Shown in pieces: positions 4,827-9,863 of a stretch of 64,000 nucleotides of DNA (within the stretch, counting starts at the first letter, position 1; every line of letters begins with the position of its first letter). Position numbers and translations under genes: made by a program. The stretch is taken from contig JAEUIH010000008.1 in NCBI GenBank assembly GCA_016795105.1, positions 124,001 through 188,000 on the forward strand, written 5' to 3'. The notes beneath the pieces are model-generated. The model was not told the origin of the DNA and searched no databases. It saw only the letters and a list, made by a program, of their open reading frames with translations. Source of the stretch: Planctomyces sp. (GTDB taxonomy: Bacteria > Planctomycetota > Planctomycetia > Planctomycetales > Planctomycetaceae).

Positions 4827-4862
4827 GTCGGCCGGTCCTCCTCAACTGGAGGTCCGGCCGAC
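4827..4862 (+). terminator. GC-rich hairpin after the secreted protein
   Basis: GTCGGCCGG and CCGGCCGAC pair perfectly over 9 bp. After one T-T mismatch, CCTCC pairs with GGAGG around the loop TCAACT. It lies 38 bp after the stop at 4789 and separates that gene from the biosynthetic operon. There is no T-run, so terminator activity is inferred from stem strength and position. Confidence 0.5.
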
Positions 4863-4900: not shown

Positions 4901-4918
4901 TCCGGAATTGCTTCCGGA
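4901..4918. promoter_or_regulatory. Perfect inverted repeat, candidate TetR operator
   Basis: TCCGGAA (4901-4907) and TTCCGGA (4912-4918) form a perfect 7-bp inverted repeat with a 4-bp centre. It sits 20 bp before the ATG at 4939 and 33 bp before the start of a protein with an N-terminal TetR DNA-binding domain. TetR regulators usually bind such palindromes at their own promoter, so this is a natural autoregulatory operator. TTTTC follows directly, so it could instead act in RNA as a small terminator or attenuator. The two roles cannot be separated from sequence. Confidence 0.4.
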
Positions 4919-4951
4919 TTTTCTTAACAGGAACACGAATGCGAGTCCGCT

Positions 4952-6586
4952 TTGCAACCTGACGCGTTGAAGATCGTTCTCTTAAACAAAGCGCTCGAAC
5001 TGTTTCGGGAACAGGGCTTCCAGAACGTGACGTACCAGCAGATCGCGTCGGCATCTGACTGCGGTCTGGACGAGGCCTATGTGAGGTTTCCACGCAAAGA
5101 GTTGTTCGTCGTTGCCCTGTATCACCGTTTCTGCGAAGACCTGAATGCATTTGCATCGGAAGCTCCGCACGGGACAGCTTCAACACGATTCCAATACCTG
5201 AACCGGCGACTTCTCCAGACTCTCGAACCCCATCGAGGACTTCTGCAGAACCTGCTGCCGCTCATGCTGGACTCCTCAACTCGCGTTGGAGTCCTTGGCG
5301 CTCACAGTAATACGATCCGGTCCGGTGTTCAGGCGATCTACAGACTCCTCGCCCTCGGTGCTGAAGACGCTCCGCAGGCCGATGAACTCGACCAGATCGT
5401 GCAGCTGATGTATTTCTCGCATCTCGGTTTGATTTTTCTGTTCCTGCAGGATCATCGGACGGATCCGGAGTTCATGGAGAACAACATTCAGCTCGCAGGT
5501 GATTTGATTGACCTCGGCAGGAAGCTTCTTCCCCGGCGAGCGACATGGCTCAGCACACAGGCATTCCGGGTTATGGGACTGCCCTCCGCTGATCGGCTCC
5601 GAAATGGCATGGAACGACTCATGACTGGCTTTCTTCATCCAGCACATGATCCCGTTCATTATTCCATTGCTGAAAACATCCTTAGAAATCTTTTCCGATT
5701 TCGTCGGCTTCAATCTGGTTCAGATCAATGTGCCAAAACACCCTGCGACCAGTGTCTGGCTCTCCATATTGAACGGATTCATCAGGCCGTGCAGGCAGGA
5801 GTACCAATCACTGCGGTACTTCCTGCGTTTCCAGCCAAGTCCCCAAATCTCGGCAAAGTCACCGGGCCTCTGCCTGACCTCGGTGAAGAACTTGCACTCA
5901 GGTTTCTTCAGGATCGCTGCGATGAAATTCGCGAAATCTATCCTCCGGGAATGCGTATCGTGATTTGTTCAGACGGTCGCGTTTTTTCAGACGTGGTGGG
6001 TGTTGAGGACAATACTGTCACCGCTTACCGCGCCGAATTGACCCGAATGATTGCAGAACTTCAGACCACCTCGATCAGCATGTTTGATCTTGATGACCTG
6101 CATACAGACCTCAGCCATCAGCAAATGCGATCATGGCTGATGGAACAATACGGCGAACCGACTGAGGTGCTCGAGCGTCGGACAGCAACAGTTCCTCAAC
6201 ACCAGCAGCTATTTAACGGCATCCATCGATTTATGACGGATGATCTATCCGTACGAATGTCCGGAGAAAGCCGAACTCAGCTCCGAAAAATTGCCAAAGA
6301 GCTGGCCTTTGAAGTGATTCGCAGAAGCAACGCATGGAGCAGACTGGTCGCTGATGTATTTCCGGACGCCCTCAGATTTTCCATCCACCCTCAGTCTGTA
6401 CACTCCGATAAAATTGGCATCATGCTGGGCGAGACCGAGGACCCATGGCTGACTCCATGGCATGGCGTTGTTTTACTCGAAATAAGCCGTTACGTTCTGA
6501 CGCACCGTGCGGTTGCAGAACAAAGAGGAGCAGAATTGATCTTCCGCGATGGTCGCCCAAGTCACTTTCAATTGTCCCCCAAGTAG
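4952..6586 (+). CDS. TetR regulator fused to PvcA/IsnA-type isonitrile synthase
   Basis: A single 544-residue polypeptide with two parts. Residues 7-55 form a TetR helix-turn-helix (ALELFREQGFQNVTYQQIA, then EAYVRFPRKELFVVALY), and about 80-195 look like a TetR helical ligand domain. Residues about 235-544 are a full DIT1/PvcA isonitrile synthase: the CAKTPCDQC cysteines (260-268), LPAFPAKSPN (290-299), GPLPDLGEELALRFL (305-319), ICSDGRVFSDVVGV (338-351), VTAY (356-359) and a C-terminal HPQSVHSDKIGI with DPWLTPWHG. Known family members build an isonitrile from the amine of Trp or Tyr using ribulose-5-phosphate. The start is a TTG at 4952, because no ATG or GTG lies between the in-frame stop at 4925 and residue 105. 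A better ATG with AGGA (4939) is one base out of frame. The TAG stop lies inside a dispersed repeat. First gene of a four-gene operon. Confidence 0.9.
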   Translation: MQPDALKIVLLNKALELFREQGFQNVTYQQIASASDCGLDEAYVRFPRKELFVVALYHRFCEDLNAFASEAPHGTASTRFQYLNRRLLQTLEPHRGLLQNLLPLMLDSSTRVGVLGAHSNTIRSGVQAIYRLLALGAEDAPQADELDQIVQLMYFSHLGLIFLFLQDHRTDPEFMENNIQLAGDLIDLGRKLLPRRATWLSTQAFRVMGLPSADRLRNGMERLMTGFLHPAHDPVHYSIAENILRNLFRFRRLQSGSDQCAKTPCDQCLALHIERIHQAVQAGVPITAVLPAFPAKSPNLGKVTGPLPDLGEELALRFLQDRCDEIREIYPPGMRIVICSDGRVFSDVVGVEDNTVTAYRAELTRMIAELQTTSISMFDLDDLHTDLSHQQMRSWLMEQYGEPTEVLERRTATVPQHQQLFNGIHRFMTDDLSVRMSGESRTQLRKIAKELAFEVIRRSNAWSRLVADVFPDALRFSIHPQSVHSDKIGIMLGETEDPWLTPWHGVVLLEISRYVLTHRAVAEQRGAELIFRDGRPSHFQLSPK

Positions 6587-6607
6587 GACGGGCATTCCTG
6601 CCCGTCC
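6583..6607. repeat. Palindromic repeat (GGGCATTCCTGCCC family) inside the operon
   Basis: A copy of the dispersed repeat whose hairpin core is CGGGCA-TTCC-TGCCCG. It lies between the isonitrile synthase and the oxygenase genes. The TAG at 6584-6586 inside it is the stop codon of the synthase, and the copy ends 11 bp before the next start. As RNA it would form a stable hairpin in the operon transcript. Confidence 0.85.
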
Positions 6608-6618
6608 CGGAGATCGTG

Positions 6619-7464
6619 ATGACTGAGCCGCTGCTTCCCGCTGACTGGAAATGTCGCCCGGTGATGCTCAGCCCTGCCGGACTGTTACTCGAGTTCCATC
6701 CGGATTCAAACCTGGCGTTCGATCAATTGTCTGAATGCATTTTGGCAGAGCTCGTGAAACAGTACGGTCTCATTGTTTTTCGAGGCTTGCCGCCAATTCC
6801 CGAGAAAACGGCGTTCAGTGACAGCTGTGGCCGATTCGGAGATCTCCTTGAGTGGAGTTTTGGCACAGTATTCGAAGTTGTAGAGCACTCTGAACCCGGG
6901 AACTACCTCTTCACCAGTGGAAGCGTACCATGGCATTGGGATGGTGCATTCGCAGCGCAAGTCCCGTGGCTTCAGTGCTTCCAATGTCGTGAAGCTCCTC
7001 TGGAGGATGCCGGGGGTGAAACACTGTTCTGCGATACCAACGCCGCATGGAATTCGCTTTCGCCGGAGACGCAGGATCGATGGAGAGAGATTCGAATTGA
7101 GTATTTCACAGATAAGGTTGCCCATTATGGTGGTACCATTGAATCTCCGCTGATCAGCCAGCATCCTTTGACGGGGCGGACCACCATACGATTTGCAGAA
7201 CCTGCAAACAGCACCACCGTTCCACTCAACACACCCACACTTCGAGTTCACGGCCTTTCTGCGGCAGCTACTGAAACACTTGTTGAGGAGCTCCGCAGAA
7301 CTCTTTACGATCCAGCACTGGTCTATGCTCACCGATGGGTCCAGGGAGACTTTCTGATTGCCGACAACCATTTGCTGCTGCATGGTCGTTCGCCATACCA
7401 GCAGGGACAACCTCGTCGGCTTTGGCGCGTTCATGTTGTATCGCCTGCGGAGCATTTGAGATGA
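6619..7464 (+). CDS. PvcB/IsnB-like Fe(II)/2-oxoglutarate oxygenase
   Basis: TauD/TfdA-fold oxygenase of 281 residues. The metal triad is visible as His106 and Asp108 (PWHWDG) plus His255 (LHGRSPY), and Arg266 or Arg270 near the C-terminus can bind 2-oxoglutarate. In known isonitrile pathways the partner oxygenase next to the synthase decarboxylates or desaturates the isonitrile amino acid to a vinyl isonitrile, or makes a related oxidation. Its position directly after the synthase argues for that role. The ATG at 6619 has GGAG six bases upstream. A longer frame from 6445 would overlap the synthase and has no family match at its N-terminus. The stop overlaps the next ATG (ATGA). Confidence 0.9.
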   Translation: MTEPLLPADWKCRPVMLSPAGLLLEFHPDSNLAFDQLSECILAELVKQYGLIVFRGLPPIPEKTAFSDSCGRFGDLLEWSFGTVFEVVEHSEPGNYLFTSGSVPWHWDGAFAAQVPWLQCFQCREAPLEDAGGETLFCDTNAAWNSLSPETQDRWREIRIEYFTDKVAHYGGTIESPLISQHPLTGRTTIRFAEPANSTTVPLNTPTLRVHGLSAAATETLVEELRRTLYDPALVYAHRWVQGDFLIADNHLLLHGRSPYQQGQPRRLWRVHVVSPAEHLR

Positions 7465-8417
7465 ACGAAATGACTGAGCGTCAGGATCCCATACCGTATT
7501 CTCAGACACAGTTTTTCACTGACCTGGAAACCGCCGCTCGGGCGATTCAGGCACCATTCGATCCTGTTAGTGTTCGGAAAATGCTGGGGGTGTTCGACGC
7601 TGAGTTTCGGCAGTGCGTCGTTCAACTGAAGGCGACGTGCAGACCTGATTCCGGTATCTACTATCGTTTCTTTTACAAATGGGATCGGGACCTGACTCAA
7701 CTGGCGATCGATCACGATTTAATCACTCAGGGTGCAGGGCCCATCGTTGAACTGCAGCAACAGGTTTTGTCTTCCTGCAACGGTGCAACCCGAGCAGGAA
7801 TTGACTTTGAGACCAACTTTGGCCTTGCAAAGATTTGGACATTCACCGGAGGACCAACTCCTCTCAGTGAACTCACGGAACTTCCGGCGATTCCACAGTC
7901 AGTTCGTGATGCTCAGGCCTTTCTGAATGATGCCGGACTGAATCATGTGTTCTTCGTTGCTTCTGACTTCCAGCAGAACTCGATGAACGTCTATTTCGGT
8001 CTTGATGAGAGCTGCCGCAATGAAGACTGGCTCTGTAATCTGATCCGGAAAACCGGTGGTGGGCCGGAAGACCCGACTCTGTATCAGAAAATGCTGAACT
8101 CACTGGCAGTGTCAACAGGCGTGGGCACCACGTTTCGCTGGGACCGACCTGAAATGGGTCGTTGGTGTCTCTATGGCCTCAACGTGCCATTTGAATCAGA
8201 AACCCCGGCTTTTGAACTGCCCCCGCTGCCCGATCGTCTAAAGCGATTTCAGCAGCAGGCACCATCACTCAATGTTTCTCCGCAGTACAACATCGCCTGG
8301 TCATTTGGAAAAGCGGGCTACTATACGAAACTTGAAAAGAGTTACTCAAAGGACGCCGACTACTTCCTGACTTGTGAAATGGGTGGCAATCTCAGCCATC
8401 CAGCGGCGATTCGATAG
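7461..8417 (+). CDS. ABBA-type aromatic prenyltransferase (NphB/CloQ/Orf2 family)
   Basis: 318 residues, the usual size for soluble ABBA prenyltransferases, which attach DMAPP, GPP or FPP to aromatic acceptors. Recognisable blocks are YYRFFYKWDRDLTQLAIDHD, GIDFETNFGLAKIWTF, LSELTELPAIPQSVRDAQAF and VASDFQQNSMNVYF, matching the NphB layout GVAELSAIPSMPPAV...MDYKKRQVNLYF. The C-terminal part (YNIAWSFGKAGYYTKLEKSY) fits the closing strands of the barrel. The start overlaps the oxygenase stop by four bases, implying translational coupling. The acceptor is probably the isonitrile product of the two preceding enzymes, since such enzymes act on indole isonitriles in hapalindole-type pathways. That is inference from context. 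An alternative start is the ATG at 7470. Confidence 0.85.
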   Translation: MNEMTERQDPIPYSQTQFFTDLETAARAIQAPFDPVSVRKMLGVFDAEFRQCVVQLKATCRPDSGIYYRFFYKWDRDLTQLAIDHDLITQGAGPIVELQQQVLSSCNGATRAGIDFETNFGLAKIWTFTGGPTPLSELTELPAIPQSVRDAQAFLNDAGLNHVFFVASDFQQNSMNVYFGLDESCRNEDWLCNLIRKTGGGPEDPTLYQKMLNSLAVSTGVGTTFRWDRPEMGRWCLYGLNVPFESETPAFELPPLPDRLKRFQQQAPSLNVSPQYNIAWSFGKAGYYTKLEKSYSKDADYFLTCEMGGNLSHPAAIR

Positions 8418-8444: not shown

Positions 8445-9863
8445 GTGAAGGCTCCTCGCGGACACTGGCTACTCGGCCATATACCACACTTTCGATCAAA
8501 CCCGATTCAATTTCTGAACGCGTGTGATGAAGACGTGATTTCCCTGCGGCTCGGGCAAACCGCATTGCTGCTTCTGCATCCGGATGACGTCACTCATGTT
8601 CTTGAGACCAGCGAACACCGGTACTCAAAAGGACGAGCCTTTCAATACGGACGACAACTCTATGGAAACAGCCTTCTGACAAGTGAAGGAGACGATCATC
8701 GGCGCCAGCTTCAGAGTATTGGAGGTGTGTTTCTAAAGACTGCAGCAGACTCGTTCCTCACCCCTGCTGAGCCAATGACTCAACAGTGGATTCAAAGATG
8801 GAAATCTCAGCCGACGTTTGATCTCTGGAAGGCGGTGTCAGAACTCACCGCCACAATCAGCATTCAGGCGGTCTTTGGCAGCGATTTCACCCCGCCGTGG
8901 CTGCCTGGCGTGGTAACAAACGACAGAGTGGCAACAAACGACAGAGTGGCAAGGCCAGATGGATCGGCAACGCGGATGACGAACGCGGATTCATTCGCTG
9001 GACGGCAGATTGCTGAAGATTTTGACACTGCCATGGATTATGTGGCAACTCGCAACTTTGCGATGATCAACCCGCCGGAATGGTTTCCCACTGCCAAAAA
9101 TCGAGCATACAAAGCCGCGATTTCCAGACTGAATCTAGCATTCGAACATGCAGTCAATCGCCGTCTCCATGGAGCTGCACATGGCGGATTCCTCTCAAGG
9201 CTTCTGGAATTGCATCAACGCGATCCTGTCACTGTTCCAATGCTGCAGGTGCGAGATCAGAGTCTGATTCTTCTGCTGGGTGGATACGAATCGTCGGCCA
9301 CTGCACTTTGCTGGTGCCTGCTTCTGCTTAGCCGTGCGACGCCAATCCGAGACAAACTGAAAACTGCGTGCCGAAGCAGAAACATCATCGACAGTCGGTC
9401 ATCGGACGCCGAACCACTGGAATCGGCCGCGGAGACTCTGATTTCTGAGATCTTCTCTGAGTCGCTTCGTCTCTATCCTCCACCATGGCTGATCCCGCGT
9501 ACCTGTGTTGAAAATGATCGGCTTCCGACCGGTCAGACAGTCAAGAAGGGAACTCAGATATTTCTAAGTCCGTACAGAACCCACAGAGACGCTCGCTGGT
9601 TCGATTCCCCGGACGACTTTCGTCCTCAGCGATTTGCATTGCAACGATCTGCCCAATTTCGTCGAGGAAGCTACTTTCCGTTCGGAATGGGAACTCGTCA
9701 CTGCATCGGTGAGTCTATTGCTCGGTCTCAGGCCGTCAGGATCCTCAAGACAATCTACAGCCTGTGTGATCTTGAATTCCCGGCAAAGGAATGGCCAAAA
9801 ACAAAACCGCTCCTGACGCTTCGCCCTGAATTACCGGTTCTCGCGAGGTTCGTAGATTCCTGA
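8445..9863 (+). CDS. Cytochrome P450
   Basis: A 472-residue soluble P450. The I-helix reads LLLGGYESSA, with Ser in place of the usual oxygen-activating Thr. The ExxR motif is ESLR (339-342), and the heme loop is FPFGMGTRHCIGE with Cys420 as the thiolate ligand. There is no membrane anchor; the protein begins KAPRGHWLLGHIPHF. The start is GTG at 8445 with AAGGA six bases upstream, 27 bp after the prenyltransferase. As last gene of the isonitrile operon it most likely oxidises or cyclises the prenylated product. An 18-bp in-frame tandem duplication encodes TNDRVA twice between the F- and G-helix region. No ferredoxin or reductase gene is nearby. Confidence 0.95.
   Translation: MKAPRGHWLLGHIPHFRSNPIQFLNACDEDVISLRLGQTALLLLHPDDVTHVLETSEHRYSKGRAFQYGRQLYGNSLLTSEGDDHRRQLQSIGGVFLKTAADSFLTPAEPMTQQWIQRWKSQPTFDLWKAVSELTATISIQAVFGSDFTPPWLPGVVTNDRVATNDRVARPDGSATRMTNADSFAGRQIAEDFDTAMDYVATRNFAMINPPEWFPTAKNRAYKAAISRLNLAFEHAVNRRLHGAAHGGFLSRLLELHQRDPVTVPMLQVRDQSLILLLGGYESSATALCWCLLLLSRATPIRDKLKTACRSRNIIDSRSSDAEPLESAAETLISEIFSESLRLYPPPWLIPRTCVENDRLPTGQTVKKGTQIFLSPYRTHRDARWFDSPDDFRPQRFALQRSAQFRRGSYFPFGMGTRHCIGESIARSQAVRILKTIYSLCDLEFPAKEWPKTKPLLTLRPELPVLARFVDS
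8915..8950 (+). repeat. 18-bp in-frame tandem duplication in the P450 gene
   Basis: Two exact 18-bp units (8915-8932 and 8933-8950) sit side by side and encode TNDRVA-TNDRVA. The identity at DNA level suggests a recent slippage duplication in a variable loop. Confidence 0.9.

Follow-up and report, generated by a model that had tools for sequence, protein, structure and literature searches.

A TetR repressor module fused to a PvcA/IsnA-type isonitrile synthase in Planctomyces sp. and at related loci of several bacterial phyla

In the window, by which the whole analysed stretch of 64,000 nucleotides from Planctomyces sp. (contig JAEUIH010000008.1) is meant, one uninterrupted frame encodes a TetR repressor module (residues about 1-228) followed by a PvcA/IsnA-type isonitrile (isocyanide) synthase (about 231-544), and this fusion was confirmed as real. 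At least 36 loci, the window among them, carry the fused frame, and in 34 of these the N-terminus is complete; the phyla represented include Planctomycetota, Bacteroidota, Acidobacteriota and Myxococcota. We hold it rather probable that an old genuine fusion brought together a TetR of the 3c07 subfamily and a tyrosine/tryptophan-type isonitrile synthase, and that the members with an intact helix-turn-helix (HTH) autorepress their operon, the repression being relieved by a sensed pathway molecule. The features of the fusion gene and of its neighbourhood are as follows:

4827-4862, + strand: long inverted repeat, rich in G+C, in the interval that separates the upstream gene from the fusion, read by eye, perhaps the terminator of the upstream gene (not among the listed terminator-like elements)
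4901-4918, no strand: candidate operator TCCGGAA-N4-TTCCGGA, 33 bp before the fusion start, not significant alone and terminator-like
4952-6586, + strand: TetR-PvcA fusion gene, 544 aa, TTG start (frame analysis and Pfam; start backed by the relative L012)
4976-5119, + strand: DNA-binding helix-turn-helix of the TetR module, residues 9-56 (TetR_N match at 10-51, alignment)
5120-5635, + strand: TetR ligand-binding/dimerisation part, residues 57-228 (alignment; 3c07 match to residue 227)
5522-5641, + strand: linker or less certain stretch, residues 191-230 (AlphaFold block of pLDDT 55-67)
5642-6583, + strand: isonitrile synthase domain of PvcA/IsnA type, residues 231-544 (PF05141 at 276-528; 3e59, 9dh4, 9dhm)
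6587-6606, no strand: REP-like palindrome in the interval between the fusion and pvcB (repeat search)
6619-7464, + strand: PvcB/TauD-type Fe(II)/2-oxoglutarate oxygenase, 281 aa from ATG, 32 nt downstream of the fusion (TauD, E 1.8e-44)
7461-8417, + strand: aromatic prenyltransferase (PTase_Orf2), 318 aa, ATGA overlap with pvcB (PF11468, E 1.2e-54)
8445-9863, + strand: cytochrome P450, 472 aa, GTG start (PF00067, E 3.2e-40)

The fusion gene comprises 544 open codons from the TTG, the 5' extension of the frame ending at the stop 4925-4927, while the one reverse frame translated across the gene contains several stops. The closest relative, L012, a Blastopirellula metagenome-assembled genome (MAG) with 55% identity, encodes an ATG-initiated protein that starts with MQPD where the window protein starts with LQPD, and the TTG start is credible because this ATG aligns with it. 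A mis-start or frameshift at the out-of-frame ATG 4939, with its better-placed AGGA, was dropped, as the L012 protein begins exactly at the window TTG. In the synthase half, the Pfam profile DIT1_PvcA (PF05141) matches residues 276-528 with E 3.3e-78 and 263.4 bits against a cut-off of 26.4. The window protein reaches 242.9 of the 600 bits required by NF045653, the NCBIfam equivalog for the L-tyrosine isonitrile synthase PvcA, and is therefore not assigned to that equivalog. The TetR_N match at residues 10-51 (E 5.8e-5) is borderline with 23.2 bits against the curated cut-off of 24; L012 scores 35.1 bits, above the cut-off, and 29 of the 33 aligned members, the window included, match at E <= 0.01. 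The TetR identity of the N-terminal half is settled, beyond the TetR_N score, by L012, by the family profile and by the AlphaFold match.

AlphaFold modelled the window protein from a 31-row alignment with pLDDT 91.2 and pTM 0.89 over both domains. Its residues 2-227 match the free TetR 3c07_B with Z 23.5 and rmsd 2.6 over 210 residues, the next TetR following at Z 16.5, and a profile of 31 family members matches 3c07 over the profile positions 8-219 with E 6.4e-31. Thus, the whole TetR fold, the last helices included, is shared with 3c07, a Streptomyces coelicolor TetR that differs in being free-standing, with 273 residues and about 20% identity. Residues 234-542 match PvcA (3e59_D) with Z 42.2 and rmsd 1.8 over 307 residues, at 40% identity in the structural match (Foldseek), and residues 231-541 match ligand-bound PIsnA structures with Z 41.5 (9dh4) and 41.4. 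The original prediction of one open frame with a TetR repressor and an isonitrile synthase was therefore borne out by Pfam, L012, profile and model; its boundaries, 1-200 and 235-544, were roughly right, except that the TetR part extends to about residue 228. Within the fusion protein, conservation in the alignment is lowest in the linker.

The genes for the PvcB-type oxygenase, the prenyltransferase and the P450 lie directly 3' of the fusion on the same strand. The order of fusion, pvcB and prenyltransferase is the same at L012, where the prenyltransferase is 66% identical; no P450 match was found in the stretch of that locus examined. The GC content across the window, which belongs to a genome of 8.9 Mb, is even (0.51-0.55). 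The window prenyltransferase, which we take to be of the ABBA type, has CloQ as its nearest solved structure (E 1.6e-31), followed by AmbP1 of the hapalindole group (E 6.2e-19). A pvcB gene follows the fusion on the same strand at all 36 loci, its first similar codon lying between 46 bp ahead of the fusion stop and 554 bp beyond it, and a gene for an FAD oxidoreductase is added at the 17 Hymenobacter loci and at L036. In three scanned examples from Bacteroidota and Myxococcota, PvcB is fused in one frame to a UbiA-type prenyltransferase (L010:13963-15729, L027:11601-13379, L031:11554-13302). The fused gene adjoins a prenyltransferase gene or a prenyltransferase-fused pvcB in the window, in L012 and in the examples scanned, which points to prenylated isonitrile products and may serve as a handle for genome mining.

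According to the favoured reading, the HTH-intact members, the window protein included, would dimerise via the TetR part, and the dimer would bind a palindrome at its own promoter and repress the isonitrile operon that the fusion heads (in the window pvcA, pvcB, prenyltransferase and P450), until a pathway molecule, sensed by the ligand-binding half, by the attached enzyme or by both, lifts the repression. A TetR repressor that senses a pathway molecule is usually a protein of its own. What is observed behind the proposed autorepression is that the fusion exists and is conserved, that the DNA-contact positions are intact in the window protein, how the genes are arranged, and that five relatives share a palindrome close to the start; co-transcription, dimerisation, autorepression, the inducer and the coupling of catalysis to DNA binding are what we infer. 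In the alignment, the window protein retains Y43, F46 and K49, which are presumably the usual DNA-contact positions of the canonical YxxFxxK stretch. The lysine at position 49 is a DNA-backbone contact in TetR proteins, and this position is K or R in 16 of the 17 HTH-intact rows of a thinned set that includes the window.

The palindrome TGAA-N4-TTCA stands 6-11 bp before the fusion's own start codon exactly in L027, L031, L043 and L044 and with one mismatch in L033. Exact copies precede four of the 34 fused genes versus one of 772 other open reading frame (ORF) starts of the same loci (Fisher p 1.3e-5; 775 starts held four exact copies, three of them at fused genes, hence 1/772), the control ORFs being taken from both strands, not necessarily genes and still containing other fused genes. 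The arms are longer in L031, L043 and L044 (shuffle p 0.007, 0.007 and 0 of 300); for L027 and L033 the shuffle p is 0.03 and 0.12. As L031, L033, L043 and L044 form one clade, with L027 distant, these are not five independent events, but conservation plus one distant case. Upstream of non-fused PvcA genes, in a wider span of 210 bp, one of 47 carries the exact palindrome and eight of 47 a copy with at most one mismatch, so that one-mismatch matches carry little weight.

In the window, the palindrome TCCGGAATTGCTTCCGGA (4901-4918) was reduced from an operator to a candidate, being not significant (shuffle p 0.067; the same score is reached at 43 of 583 ORF starts) and terminator-like in score. 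It has two exact copies in the genome, the other one inside an open frame, and 24 sites at no more than one mismatch versus three for the reversed control. General palindromes are little enriched before fused genes (6/34 versus 43/583 ORF starts), a palindrome score of at least 7 within 60 bp of the start being absent from 28 of the 34, and outside the five relatives with TGAA-N4-TTCA the upstream palindrome searches gave no convincing operator, the window being no exception. In the upstream alignments of four Hymenobacter subgroups (12 of the 17 loci), no common palindrome was seen by eye, and the hairpins in L030 and in L024/L040 were judged by eye to be probable terminators. Three Hymenobacter loci, L113, L118 and L122, have 5' of the fusion gene another, independent TetR-like frame of about 200 codons (E 3e-9 to 3e-8 against the fused-TetR profile), which could be the real regulator there.

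According to another reading, which is unlikely in our judgement and yet deserves serious attention, the TetR module serves the synthase chiefly as an allosteric sensor or as a scaffold for dimerisation, and DNA binding is an ancestral output that some lineages have kept and others lost. Four members (L017, a planctomycete, and L015, L029 and L032, acidobacterial, as deposited) are missed by the TetR_N model even with a threshold of E <= 10, and among the 21 rows compared their DNA-contact residues are gone, position 49 being D, D, S and D and position 43 Q, R, R and K in L015, L017, L029 and L032, respectively; they retain, however, the usual residues at 57, 64, 79, 119, 123 and 154 in the core of the ligand-binding half. 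In L080:8885-10921 (Plesiocystis pacifica) and L105:4657-7392 (G651), two cyclic-nucleotide-binding (cNMP) domains precede PvcA in the place of TetR, the L105 protein having an additional C-terminal DUF924 domain. In the tree of the PvcA domain (71 rows, careful search, midpoint root for drawing, L092 left out), a branch of no great support (84/63) separates the 38 non-fused rows from the TetR-fused rows; a set of 23 fused and the two cNMP proteins is supported with 99/91, so that the latter are nested inside the fused set, as was L080 in an earlier quick tree as well. The four decayed members share a moderately supported subclade (86/89) with the cNMP proteins. Since the regulator was decayed or replaced while the enzyme retains an N-terminal module, an enzyme-directed role is suspected; the N-terminal domain may, as judged from sequence, also serve the enzyme as a sensor or scaffold. 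The loss of the DNA-binding residues or of the whole TetR in these relatives also implies that DNA control is not the sole job of the N-terminal position family-wide, and that repression is not universal in the family.

The structural side of this second reading weighs both ways. The pTM given above extends over both domains, and the model of the HTH-decayed L032 (pLDDT 89.9) is still TetR-like, with 3c07 at Z 23.2 and then human COQ9 at Z 16.1; however, the input alignment of the L032 model contained intact TetR members, and its fold is therefore not independent. COQ9, a partner of COQ7, has a TetR fold without DNA binding and serves an enzyme. It also matches the HTH-intact window model (Z 16.4, ranked just under the free TetRs), so that the COQ9 likeness of L032 is no diagnosis of the decayed members. 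COQ9 is also a separate protein, whereas the window protein is on one chain with its enzyme and keeps the DNA-contact positions, an intact HTH that itself speaks against a mere scaffold. All 33 aligned rows have Y57, R79 and R123, but several conserved positions of the ligand-binding half are also present in 3c07 (profile alignment); they may thus mark a TetR subfamily, are no evidence for a pathway ligand and need not reflect a contact with PvcA. Ribulose-5-phosphate is the carbon donor according to a portion of PMC7949033, and that the conserved arginines hold it is speculation.

Tentatively, and as a possibility rather than an expectation, one broad isonitrile synthase family may consist of self-regulating enzymes with an exchangeable N-terminal sensor, which would usually be an intact TetR that acts on promoter and enzyme, in some lineages a DNA-binding-dead TetR that acts on the enzyme alone, and in some myxobacteria a cNMP pair; on this view, the window protein would sense with two outputs, one to its own gene and one to its own catalysis. 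The HTH-decayed and cNMP-swapped relatives are natural comparisons for a passage from a repressor to an allosteric domain of an enzyme.

A neutral fusion of the regulator to the leading gene of its operon by stop-codon loss, with an ordinary TetR and an enzyme that takes no part in control, is quite improbable. Many pathway operons are headed by TetR genes, and the poorly conserved linker, less certain in the model, would suit such an origin. However, one domain order is retained across several phyla, and the swap of the whole N-terminal domain in two genomes points to a reason for keeping a module. The distances of the TetR and PvcA parts moreover correlate (Spearman 0.54 over 19 rows; 0 of 2000 permutations as high), so that the halves travel together, as is expected of one inherited unit. 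The fused-TetR profile gave 15 matches in the ORFs of 49 other, non-fused loci, 2.3 to 9.4 kb away and in one case at 786 bp (L009), and no clear case of a two-gene ancestor, a TetR gene beside a non-fused PvcA, was found among those 49 loci. In six genomes the TetR profile has no better match than the fused gene itself; a single further match is near full length (G437, positions 5-186, 75 bits), and the remaining ones cover the first half or less. The long N-terminal extensions of the non-fused L047, L051, L052 and L076 were rejected as domains, being judged by eye a non-coding frame.

An assembly or sequencing artefact that joined two genes, conceivable in a draft genome of 391 contigs, is virtually untenable and refuted by the relatives, as the fusion is found again in further isolates and MAGs, with 35-55% identity, and on two complete Hymenobacter plasmids, and all 18 PvcA frames from the family of G434 contain the TetR part. 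The same domain order, proposed in the original prediction as the sign of a real fusion, was hence found in several phyla, and the separate genes or frameshift that it named as the opposite sign were sought in relatives, where the reverse was seen.

The sample of loci comes from a contig search with the fusion itself as query, which tilts it towards fused forms: the best 80 of 230 relatives were 33 TetR-fused, one cNMP-fused (L080) and 46 with the PvcA part only, and the 33, the window and two Hymenobacter plasmid copies make the 36 fused loci. None of the 36 has a stop inside the match, and in L041 and L042 the N-terminal part is missing near a contig end. Hymenobacter accounts for 17 of the 36; MAG names are used as deposited, and L038 (Pseudomonadota) and L041 (Actinomycetota) lie beyond the four named phyla. 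Among 59 genomes, that of the window (G000) and 58 relatives, the full match is in G000 only, with one further, TetR-only match. In the window's phylum, 6 of 392 genomes have PF05141; it is fused in G000, G101 and G138, present in G163 as two copies without TetR, one of them fused to PvcB, and weak and distant in G431 and G077. In the phylum of G435 (the genome of L031) it occurs in 5 of 282 genomes, fused in G435 and G707 and with cNMP domains in G439 and G651; in G535 (L106) a short PvcA frame gave no TetR match and was left out of use. In the family of G434 (Hymenobacter), 18 of 204 genomes have PF05141, all 18 in open frames of at least 538 codons that hold the TetR part. This sporadic occurrence fits horizontal spread. 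The fusion locus of L010 and L011 lies on Hymenobacter plasmids of roughly 300 kb, with integrase genes in the same stretch. The annotated records of both complete Hymenobacter plasmids that carry the fusion name only the enzyme.

As an enzyme-regulator design, the TetR-PvcA fusion is apparently undescribed. PvcA, IsnA and PIsnA resemble the C-terminal 310 residues of the window protein and are likewise followed by pvcB; according to parts of a 2018 phylogenetic survey of isocyanide synthases (PMC5974471), however, the common bacterial architectures are single-domain and synthase-dioxygenase, the synthase-NRPS form being confined to fungi, and the bacterial synthases are mainly from Proteobacteria, Cyanobacteria and Actinobacteria, while the window form has a TetR module in front. 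The sections consulted of two further papers describe separate regulators, namely ptxR as a gene next to pvc (PMC3639982) and R1-R3 in the hapalindole-type clusters (PMC4236562). The hapalindole/ambiguine clusters of cyanobacteria combine, as the window does, isonitrile genes with an aromatic prenyltransferase (PMC4236562, in part), that of the window being nearer to CloQ than to AmbP1. In agreement with the original prediction, no description of a TetR-PvcA fusion was found in the open-access literature, including the accessible parts of PMC5300972 and PMC4849077, and it may be described elsewhere; no open-access isonitrile literature naming Hymenobacter was found and few papers naming Planctomycet-.

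Enzyme-regulator fusions and trigger enzymes of the PutA, BirA, NadR and MocR-GabR type combine a DNA-binding regulator and an enzyme on one chain, as does the window protein by its sequence and model. None that we know of has a TetR as its regulator or an isonitrile synthase as its enzyme. A conserved covalent link between a TetR repressor and the committing enzyme would make one chain both the catalyst and the gene switch; the built-in trigger enzyme of the original prediction, in which substrate or product would act on DNA binding, is a proposal of this kind.

Several minor observations concern related genes. In L080:6670-8850 and L105:9382-11559, a PvcB-type oxygenase is fused to a cytochrome P450, and an O-methyltransferase gene and a second, diverged PF05141 gene lie nearby. 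G163 encodes a PvcA-PvcB fusion (L004:556-2442, minus strand) and, at L009, an unfused PvcA as its second copy; a TetR-like frame lies 786 bp from the latter. In viral contigs, one distant unfused PvcA (L092) was found and no prenyltransferase was confirmed, and PADLOC gave no match. The REP-like palindrome GACGGGCATTCCTGCCCGTC has five copies in the window at no more than three mismatches (6587-6606, 44050, 53635, 53666, 63064) and 327 copies genome-wide at no more than one mismatch, versus 0 for the reversed control, often clustered among the places listed.
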